Assembly (NCBI GenBank): GCA_016870035.1
Contig: VGCJ01000005.1
Location: 1-63,710, forward strand
Source of the DNA: Alphaproteobacteria bacterium
GTDB lineage: Bacteria > Pseudomonadota > Alphaproteobacteria > Rhizobiales > Beijerinckiaceae
Reading direction: 5' to 3'
Length of the DNA stretch: 63,710 bases
The position numbers were made by a program, and so were the translations under genes. Shown one piece after another: positions 58,422 through 60,587 of the stretch; position 1 is the stretch's first letter; each line of letters opens with the position of its first letter. The notes under the pieces were generated by a model that saw only the letters and a list, made by a program, of their open reading frames with translations, made no database searches and was not told the origin of the DNA.

Positions 58422-59657
58422 TCAGGCCACACTCCCTGTCGCGGTAAATCCGTGTTCGGCTTCGATATGTGCGCATGCCGCATCAAGGCGATGAAGGGCG
58501 TCATCGGCAAGCTTTTCATCAATGATTAATGGCGGCAGAAGACGCACAACATTATCGCCTGCGCCAACGGATAACATATGCTCGTTGAATAAGGCCTTGG
58601 TCAATTCCGTATTTGGTTGCGCGGCTTTGACACCCATTAACAAACCTTCGCCGCGTATATCGGCAATCACACGCGGATGCCTATCTTTCAAAGCGGCGAG
58701 TTTCTGTTTGAAAAGCAAACCCAAATGGCGGACATGGTCAAGAAAACCTGGCGCCAGCATCACATCAAGGACCGCATTGCCGACAGCCATCGCAAGCGGA
58801 TTGCCGCCAAATGTCGTGCCATGCGATCCCGCAGTCATGCCTTTGCCTGCTTCAAGCGTTGCAAGACAAGCGCCGACGGGAAAGCCGCCCCCCAAACCTT
58901 TCGCGAGCGCCATGATGTCGGGCGCAACGCCTGATTTTTGATAGGCAAAAAGATGGCCTGTGCGGCCCATGCCACATTGAACCTCATCAAAAATTAACAA
59001 GAGGCCATGGCGATCACATAATTCACGCAAGCCTTTGAGACATTGCGATGGCACAACGCGAACGCCGCCTTCACCTTGAATGGGCTCAATTAAGATCGCT
59101 GCTGTTTCTGGCGTGATGGCTTTTTCAATCGCATCATGATCGGCAAAAGCGACTTGATCAAAACCATCAACTTTCGGGCCGAAGCCATCGAGATATTTTT
59201 TCTGCCCGCCCGCTGCGAGCGTTGCGAGTGTGCGACCGTGAAACGCCCCTTCAAAAGTAATGATGCGGAATTTCTCGGGGTTGTCATTCGCCGAATGATA
59301 TTTGCGCGCCATTTTGATCGCACATTCGAGCGCCTCTGCACCCGAATTCGTGAAGAAGACAGTGTCGGCAAAACTATGCTCGATAAGGCGGCGCGCGAGT
59401 CTTTCGCCTTCCGGAATCTGATAGAGATTTGAAACATGCCAAAGCTTGGCCGCTTGTGCTTGCAATGCCTCGACGAGATGCGGATGAGCATGGCCCAAAG
59501 CGTTCACAGCGATGCCCGAGCCGAAATCGAGATAGGCTTCGCCTTTCTGATCATAGAGCCAGCAGCCTTCGCCGCGCTCAAATCCAATGTCGAGACGTGC
59601 GAAAGTGGGCAACAAAGCGGAGGCGGGTGATGCGACTGCAGAACTGGGTCCGGACAT
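58422..59657 (-). CDS. argD: Acetylornithine transaminase
   Basis: The 411-residue PLP enzyme has [49 protein letters not shown] and the PLP Lys in [15 protein letters not shown], with [12 protein letters not shown] after it. It converts N-acetylglutamate semialdehyde to N-acetylornithine, and in many bacteria also serves lysine synthesis. GGGAG 9 bases before ATG 59657 decides that start over 59681. It is the first gene of the operon with argF, hslO and the NlpC/P60 gene; a promoter and a terminator-like hairpin lie upstream. Confidence 0.94.
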
Positions 59658-59670
59658 GGACACGGCTCCC

Positions 59671-59715
59671 AAAAAAGACAAGAAAAAACAAAAATGGCCG
59701 CCCCGAGGGACGGCT
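59671..59715 (-). terminator. Terminator-like hairpin in the argD leader
   Basis: On the minus strand GCCGTCCC, TCG and GGGCGGC form a GC-rich stem with a single bulged T, followed by ATTTTTGTTTTTTC. It lies between the promoter and the argD start (59657), so it could act as an attenuator of the arginine operon or as a leader-terminator with read-through. No leader peptide fits in front of it. Confidence 0.5.
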
Positions 59716-59808: not shown

Positions 59809-59817
59809 TTATCCACT
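59809..59817 (+). promoter_or_regulatory. DnaA-box-like 9-mer upstream of gcrA
   Basis: TTATCCACT differs at one position from the consensus TTATCCACA and lies 210 bases before the gcrA ATG, in the shared gap with argD. In Caulobacter DnaA activates gcrA transcription, so the element is in a sensible place. A single 8-of-9 match can occur by chance. Confidence 0.4.
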
Positions 59818-59837
59818 ATTCATCGCTGGGGAAAACT

Positions 59838-59883
59838 GATTCAGCGACTCATCAGCGGACTCCGCGACTCTTGCGATGGAGTC
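59838..59883. promoter_or_regulatory. Cluster of five GANTC (CcrM) sites upstream of gcrA
   Basis: GANTC occurs at 59838 (GATTC), 59846, 59858 and 59866 (GACTC) and 59879 (GAGTC): five sites in 46 bases. About 0.2 would be expected by chance. The first four form two pairs spaced 8 bases, the pairs set 20 bases apart, in an imperfect 20-bp tandem repeat. GANTC is methylated by CcrM in alphaproteobacteria, and GcrA binds promoters carrying methylated GANTC. The cluster lies 145-190 bases before gcrA itself, in the gap also holding the argD promoter. Confidence 0.75.
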
Positions 59884-60026
59884 AACGCATATTGTAGGTT
59901 TTCGACGCATCAAACGCGATATCTGGTGGCGTTAAGGCTTCGTCTCTTCGCTTGGCTTTGTGAGTTTCAAGGCAATGCAGCAGGGCCCCACCAATCGGGT
60001 TTGTCAATTTTTTTGTGAGGAAATCG

Positions 60027-60587
60027 ATGTCCTGGACCGATGAACGAGTCGAGTTGCTGCGCAAGCTTTGGAACCAGGGCCTGAGTGCAAGCCAAATCGC
60101 GGCTGAATTGGCAAATGGCATCACCCGCAATGCGGTGATTGGCAAAGTGCACCGCTTGGGGCTTTCGGGCCGGGCAAAAGCGCCCTCCTCACAAGCCGCA
60201 CGGCCGCGCAAAATCACCCGCGCACCGAGCCACCCTTTGACGCATTCAGCAAATCGAGCTGGCCTTGGCTCTTATTCGTCAGCCGCCGCCGGTCAGGCGG
60301 CGATCCGCGGCAATCTTGCTTTGAGTCCTTCACCGGTCACCGCCGAGGCGATCGCGCCTGTCGTGGCTTATGATCCCGAGCCCTTCACGGATGTTGTTGT
60401 GCCAATGTCAGAGCGGATCACGATCATGGAATTACGTGAATCCACCTGTCGCTGGCCTTTCGGCGATCCGTCATCACCAGATTTCCGCTTCTGCGGTGCG
60501 GAGTCGCCGATTGGAACGCCCTATTGCGCCTTCCATTCGCGCATTGCGTATCAGCCTTCGAGCGATCGTCGCAAAAACAAAGACTGA
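60027..60587 (+). CDS. gcrA: Cell-cycle transcriptional regulator GcrA
   Basis: The 186-residue protein begins MSWTDERVELLRKLWNQGLSASQIAAEL (N-terminal DNA-binding helix-turn-helix) and IGKVHRLGLSGRAK, has a Pro/Ala-rich linker (about residues 55-125) and the conserved C-terminal domain (MELRESTCRWPFGDPSSPDFRFCGAES, YCAFHSRIAYQP) that contacts RNA polymerase sigma-70. GcrA acts with CcrM methylation to control cell-cycle genes. The start is ATG 60027 (GAGGAAA ribosome site). Five GANTC sites and a DnaA-box-like site lie upstream. It ends 15 bases from the end of phoB, convergent. Confidence 0.94.
   Translation: MSWTDERVELLRKLWNQGLSASQIAAELANGITRNAVIGKVHRLGLSGRAKAPSSQAARPRKITRAPSHPLTHSANRAGLGSYSSAAAGQAAIRGNLALSPSPVTAEAIAPVVAYDPEPFTDVVVPMSERITIMELRESTCRWPFGDPSSPDFRFCGAESPIGTPYCAFHSRIAYQPSSDRRKNKD

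Follow-up and report, generated by a model that had tools for sequence, protein, structure and literature searches.

A dense GANTC array before gcrA in a Beijerinckiaceae genome contains a conserved, predicted promoter core that probably responds to CcrM methylation

The locus considered here raises the question of what a cluster of five GANTC motifs, the recognition sequence of the methylase CcrM, is doing within 46 bp (59838-59883) in front of gcrA. It lies in a stretch of 63,710 nucleotides, hereafter called the window, which makes up contig 5 in the draft genome (G000; 2.38 Mb) of an alphaproteobacterium of the family Beijerinckiaceae, placed in the order Hyphomicrobiales by its named relatives. 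An earlier note on this DNA, made from the letters alone, had put the density of the sites at ~25 times the random expectation and had described the first four as pairs repeated on a 20-bp period. On recount the five sites were confirmed, with offsets between successive sites of 8, 12, 8 and 13 bp, and their density is by simple arithmetic ~28 times what equal base frequencies would give and ~43 times that of the window as a whole. The first two pairs do follow a 20-bp period, within a 13-mer repeat that is 85% alike at a spacing of 20 bp, and a spacing of 20-21 bp, or roughly two turns of the helix, separates the first, third and fifth sites of the array and likewise the second and fourth. 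An origin of the array by tandem 20-bp duplication is not supported, as the 85% likeness extends over 13 bp that are mostly letters of the sites themselves. The coordinates of the sites and of the neighbouring features are collected in Table 1.

Table 1. Features of the argD-gcrA locus, in window coordinates; offsets of GANTC sites are counted from core site 1, and a point marks features given without strand.
Feature	Position	Strand	Remarks
argD, divergent neighbour, outside the putative switch	58422..59657	-	NCBIfam acetylornithine transaminase, 651.5 bits (cut-off 372)
TTATCCACT, DnaA-box-like	59809..59817	+	8/9 match to E. coli-type DnaA box; TATCCAC in all 11 genus members compared
TGGGGAAAAC box	59827..59836	.	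TCCCCA on the other strand is the Caulobacter W-box, a weak DnaA site (PMC4285127)
Outer GANTC (GATTC), -28	59838..59842	.	Position shared by G000, G004 and G011 alone, among the 11 genus members with data
Outer GANTC (GACTC), -20	59846..59850	.	Minus strand TGAGTCG fits YGAKTCK; common to G004 and G011
GANTC (GACTC), -8	59858..59862	.	Kept in 10/11 genus members with data
Core site 1 (GACTC), 0	59866..59870	.	Adjoins -35 hexamer; order-wide pattern
-35 hexamer TTGCGA, predicted	59871..59876	+	TTG kept at 95, 95 and 100% in 44 aligned promoters
Core site 2 (GAGTC), +13	59879..59883	.	In -35/-10 spacer; most conserved site, intact in 59/74 promoters detected among 98 genomes
-10 hexamer TAGGTT, predicted	59895..59900	+	18-bp spacer; T, A and last T kept at 98, 95 and 84%
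gcrA transcription start, predicted	59907	+	~-120 from ATG
Degenerate copy of leader palindrome TACGACATCTCGTG	59915..59928	.	Palindrome just after predicted start, common across the order
gcrA CDS	60027..60587	+	Pfam GcrA PF07750, E 9e-54; GTG at 60015 is an alternative start

GANTC is depleted in the window as a whole (176 occurrences, against ~321 expected from shuffles), and apart from the array no 46-bp stretch starting at a GANTC holds more than two sites. When 176 sites are placed at random, five fall within the array span with P = 0.0008, and windows simulated with Markov-1 and Markov-3 models (60 runs each) reached a maximum of four sites, with five in 0/120. Chance is a poor explanation of the array. 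Spacing alone is not rare, the arrangement GANTC-N8-GANTC being found in 8 places in the genome and its reversed control in 5; for GANTC-N3-GANTC the figures are 10 and 5. Stronger support for the array than these simulation statistics comes from its conservation.

The two nearest relatives (G004 and G011) carry all five sites at positions from the start codon identical to those in G000, which bears out the conservation that the earlier note had proposed to look for in close relatives. Among these three species none of the 25 site bases varies, as against 7 of the 21 spacer bases (Fisher P = 0.002), and the strict 20-bp period was seen in them alone. Another member of the genus (G001) has four array sites with offsets of 8, 8 and 13 bp, six more (G003, G005, G006, G008, G009 and G010) retain of the array only the counterparts of sites 59858 and 59879, 21 bp apart, and G002, which is of the same genus, has a promoter that can be recognised and encodes a methylase of RAMA type, has no array site at all. 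Only a 3' fragment of gcrA is present in G007, leaving its upstream DNA unreadable, so that 11 genus members provide data: the sites at -8 and +13 are each present in 10 of them, core site 1 in 4 and all five sites in 3. The outer two sites (59838 and 59846) are young. Of the 74 genomes with the core described below, 21 have a site between -7 and -10, and 10 of these 21 are from the window's genus. A representative of a separate genus of the same family (G017) possesses a five-site cluster of its own, spanning 42 bp upstream of gcrA; this assembly is 78% complete, has no RAMA hit, and its promoter was missed by the core score introduced below. In three species of one genus the array is unusually dense; the underlying feature is real and conserved.

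That feature becomes visible across the order. Of 100 genomes searched (own included), 99 gave a GcrA match and G058 gave none; upstream DNA was read for 98, the fragment in G007 being set aside. Within the last 400 bp before gcrA, 44/98 genomes contain a pair of GANTC sites 13 bp apart, the next commonest spacings up to 40 bp being 21 bp (12/98) and 22 bp (10/98); across the order no spacing but that of 13 bp is conspicuous, and 21-22 bp ranks after it. In the window this pair corresponds to the sites at 59866 and 59879, which form part of a core element, GACTC-TTG-N5-GANTC-N6-T-N3-GTA, that occurs across the order. Alignment of the 44 promoters gave GACTCTTGC, followed by GANTCA and then by TANNGTAGNNT, with a leader that often reads TACGACATCTCGTGCGGCGGA and with TGGGGAAAAC or a variant of it upstream. 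On these letters we interpret TTGCGN as the putative -35 and TAGNNT as the putative -10 of a sigma-70 promoter with an 18-bp spacer. TATTGT was rejected as the -10 hexamer, for which the spacer would be 13-14 bp, where TAGGTT gives 18. A scan with the standard sigma-70 consensus detected no promoter at the predicted gcrA promoter. The predicted start, at about -120, agrees with the start of S. meliloti gcrA at -122 (PMC4414408). The gcrA product of the window scores 152 bits against the NCBIfam GcrA model, below the cut-off of 280.

A core score was built from the 44 promoters with the GANTC letters masked, taking the 99% level of shuffled regions as the threshold. By this score the core is present in 74/98 genomes, with both sites intact in 42 of these, site 2 alone in 17, site 1 alone in none and neither site in 15; two of the 24 genomes without the core by score (G028 and G082, which are training members) do have the 13-bp pair. 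In promoters outside the training set site 2 is intact in 17/32, against ~1 in 256 by chance. Its N base is G in 33 cases, T in 19, A in 5 and C in 2, as expected if what is conserved is a motif that can be methylated and not one particular word. Site 1 reads GACTC in 41/42 cases, and its N is therefore not free, which would suit an explanation in which the promoter letters are needed by sigma-70 or another factor, methylation is irrelevant and the outer sites drift; the 15 of 74 promoters with neither core site point the same way. At site 2, however, GA-TC is kept while N varies, the site bases of the three array-bearing species are constant where their spacers are not, and five-site clusters occur in two genera of the family, and we regard this explanation as unlikely.

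A search for the core as GACTCTTGN5GANTCN6TN3GTA in 297 genomes of the order gave matches in 78/297, the reversed pattern used as a control giving 0/297, and 30/30 of the core-pattern loci listed among these genomes precede gcrA. A scan of genome contigs found at least 118 stretches with the pattern; among the matches listed, which include Bradyrhizobium, Mesorhizobium, Phyllobacterium, Devosia, Microvirga, Bosea and Nitrobacter, 108/118 are followed by a GcrA start at no more than 700 bp. The 10 listed stretches without such a start comprise three that end too soon (L164, L185 and L205), four that resemble the same promoter (L144, L191, L196 and L226) and three that look like chance (L152, L172 and L255).

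Counted from site 1, the density of extra GANTC sites is 18.9 per kb at -30 to -5, 7.2-9.1 per kb at -100 to -30, 1.4-3.2 per kb beyond -100 and 0.6-3.4 per kb at +18 to +100. The densest bin is in the leader, at +100 to +140 (61 sites, 20.6 per kb); since the density there is at or above that of the promoter, other constraints also keep such words, and density alone is no proof of a promoter role. In relatives this leader hotspot lies ~30-60 nt before the ATG and often reads GGATTC; it is absent from the window, and could be an RNA-level signal. The gcrA leaders of many relatives also carry TGCGGCGGA, the complement of UCCGCCGCAUCU, which is the conserved loop in the EcpR1 sRNA (PMC4414408), and the counterpart of TGCGGCGGA in the window (59923-59931) is degenerate. 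A search of G000 for EcpR1 itself, by the exact 12-letter loop word, gave two occurrences, both rejected as they lie inside coding-type ORFs (Era-like and GST-like by reading), and no known RNA family was found in the window at the gathering threshold.

The array sits in an intergenic region shared with the divergent argD, near DnaA-box-like words, a position that would also fit control of the argD-argF operon, or of a replication-linked site, in place of gcrA. The position of the element is nevertheless fixed relative to the gcrA -10, whereas its distance to the hairpin before argD varies (151 bp in G000, 278 bp in G047 and 362 bp in G020), and the element also occurs in G030, in which the divergent gene has an ArgG-like beginning, as read from its translation. 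The divergent arginine operon, which the earlier note had allowed as an alternative target, is on these grounds not borne out, and it is highly unlikely that the array controls this operon or a replication-linked site in place of gcrA. The hairpin itself, in the argD leader (59697-59714, minus strand), is terminator-like, has a U-run and lies just before argD in the argD direction. A crude scan upstream of gcrA found a hairpin with a T-run on the argD-direction strand in 69/98 genomes, not all of the 69 being the argD hairpin, and on the other strand in 16/98. By eye, a candidate argD promoter (TTGACA/TATAAG, 19-bp spacer), missed by the sigma-70 scan, would begin argD transcription only ~10 nt before the hairpin. 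In many relatives the box upstream of the array reads TGGGGA, TGTGGA or TGTTGA (by eye) according to lineage, as if weak and strong DnaA sites had been interchanged. The gcrA promoter of Caulobacter has been described as activated by DnaA and as having one box (PMC3193534).

A gene for CcrM, which the earlier note had named among the things to check in this genome, is present on contig C71 of G000. It encodes a protein with N6_N4_Mtase and RAMA domains (PF01555, 214.8 bits; RAMA, 59 bits) that scores 601.6 bits against the NCBIfam CcrM model, below the cut-off of 830, and the preceding ORF is rnhB-like by reading. RAMA-type methylases are found in 97/100 genomes (own included). Coupled loss of CcrM and its sites was therefore uninformative as a line of evidence; of the three genomes with no RAMA hit (G017, G034 and G085), two are less than 80% complete.

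Agrobacterium tumefaciens belongs to the same order as the organism of the window. Its gcrA is orthologous and is likewise preceded by clustered GANTC sites in the presence of CcrM (PMC11514494), although with six sites in 250 bp as compared to the five in 46 bp observed here, and the available text of that paper contains no description of a 13-bp core pair around the -35. In A. tumefaciens gcrA rises 2.8-fold on CcrM depletion, and a gcrA promoter fusion is less active when methylated, in E. coli as well as in A. tumefaciens itself (PMC11514494). The effect, according to the authors, needs no alphaproteobacterial regulators, and hence need not pass through GcrA (PMC11514494). In the ctrA P1 promoter of Caulobacter a GANTC site adjoins the -35, as here, and activation is associated with the hemimethylated state, silencing with the fully methylated one (PMC3667746). 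This promoter is a GcrA target for which a single CcrM site is described (PMC3667746), whereas several sites are present before gcrA in the window and a role for GcrA there is putative. Among Caulobacter cell-cycle starts, the location of GANTC inside or outside the -10/-35 region goes with expression timing, the starts that have a site in the interval from -10 to -35 being a separate timing class (PMC4287350). More than one site occurs at 11/96 of the starts with GANTC within 50 bp upstream, and the available text of this study does not describe a paired element (PMC4287350).

We consider it fairly probable that the array constitutes the core from which the gcrA promoter is regulated, and that full CcrM methylation would lower the activity of this promoter and replication would relieve the effect. 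Two CcrM sites would flank the -35 of the predicted sigma-70 promoter, at ~-41 to -37 and ~-28 to -24, and since they adjoin the hexamer or lie in the spacer they would be well placed for a direct effect of methylation. With all sites fully methylated in G1 the promoter would be poorly used; passage of the fork would leave the sites hemimethylated, and gcrA transcription would rise until they are remethylated by CcrM in late S phase. The hemimethylation step has been proposed for the Agrobacterium gcrA promoter (PMC11514494), to which ours is linked by homology and site density. The extra upstream sites may give a deeper repressed state or a sharper change, and the DnaA-box-like sequences nearby may couple the burst of gcrA transcription to initiation. 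The direction of the methylation effect in the window's organism and the amplifying role of the extra sites are what we infer here. The 15 of 74 detected promoters with neither core site, and the siteless G002 with its RAMA-type methylase, run contrary to such a switch. gcrA lies within 20% of the contig span from hemE, which we take to be a proxy for the replication origin, in 13/14 long-contig genomes, 11/14 having the 13-bp pair; in the exception, G046, the pair is present and gcrA is 40% of the contig from hemE. A gcrA gene near hemE would stay hemimethylated for long.

It is also possible that GcrA, bound to the methylated sites, turns its own promoter up or down, with the array amplifying this feedback. 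The GcrA proteins of B. abortus and S. meliloti also prefer methylated GANTC, and on fully methylated ctrA P1 GcrA covers -35 to +7 (PMC3667746). The sites themselves can be compared with YGAKTCK, an extended GcrA-activation motif derived from Caulobacter and not seen in B. subvibrioides (PMC7987155), which weakens both the statement that upstream sites fit it and the statement that core sites do not; the background fit in the window is 38/176. At -11 to -30 from site 1 the motif is fitted by 12/14 sites of the relatives, or by 7/8 when counted by genus (hand count, P = 0.0001 against the window rate of 38/176). At the core, in contrast, it is fitted by 0/42 of site 1 and 7/59 of site 2, and in the window array by one outer site among the five and by neither core site. 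The remaining sites of the relatives fit in 4/21 cases at -7 to -10, in 2/61 in the leader and in 19/113 elsewhere. The set of all 118 stretches listed, which includes the 10 without a GcrA start and many close relatives, gives 0/118 at site 1, 8/118 at site 2, 25/31 at -11 to -30, 11/14 at -7 to -10 and 3/18 at -31 to -60. Methylation lowers the activity of the Agrobacterium gcrA promoter in E. coli too (PMC11514494), and a word search found no autoregulation of gcrA in the available text of PMC7987155 or PMC3667746. Feedback by GcrA as the main explanation of the array we hold to be rather doubtful; GcrA autoregulation is possible as a process secondary to a direct methylation effect, and contact of GcrA with the upstream sites appears plausible, at the core less so. 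A public GcrA ChIP-seq set exists for B. abortus (GSE136733; PMC6813329). The methylation-dependent autoregulatory switch of the earlier note can thus be retained in part: the array lies in the predicted gcrA promoter and a methylation switch is its best reading, but action of GcrA on its own promoter was not supported as the central step, as core sites rarely fit YGAKTCK and the Agrobacterium effect appears in E. coli without GcrA (PMC11514494). We suggest, tentatively, that gcrA promoters of the Hyphomicrobiales may combine two kinds of site, namely a fixed pair around the -35, through which methylation would be signalled directly to sigma-70 polymerase with no need of GcrA, and, further upstream, a variable group of GcrA-type sites that would give feedback and would have grown into a dense array on at least two occasions.

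The existence of GANTC sites before gcrA is not new. CcrM control of gcrA was predicted in 2010 for a cluster that includes the Rhizobiales, in a survey that counted sites in 500-bp windows and whose available text does not describe their architecture (PMC2877005). As far as the available text of the literature searched extends, we found no description of the fixed pair, its order-wide reach or the amplified array, which is no proof of absence. The conserved core provides two specific sites for mutation, and the natural series of 0, 2, 4 and 5 array sites (in G002, G003, G001 and G000, respectively) offers a handle on the effect of site number. The 31-bp pattern is a practical marker, which precedes gcrA in 108/118 of the matches listed. 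If the suggestion of two kinds of site is true, gcrA would be a two-input clock that responds to fork passage and to its own product. Judged by its sequence, the promoter in the window appears to represent, in a variant form, the methylation-sensitive gcrA promoter already known, and by analogy it probably senses how recently its own DNA was copied, much like that of Agrobacterium. Since GcrA reads CcrM marks, a gcrA promoter that senses those marks would close the methylation clock on its own reader.
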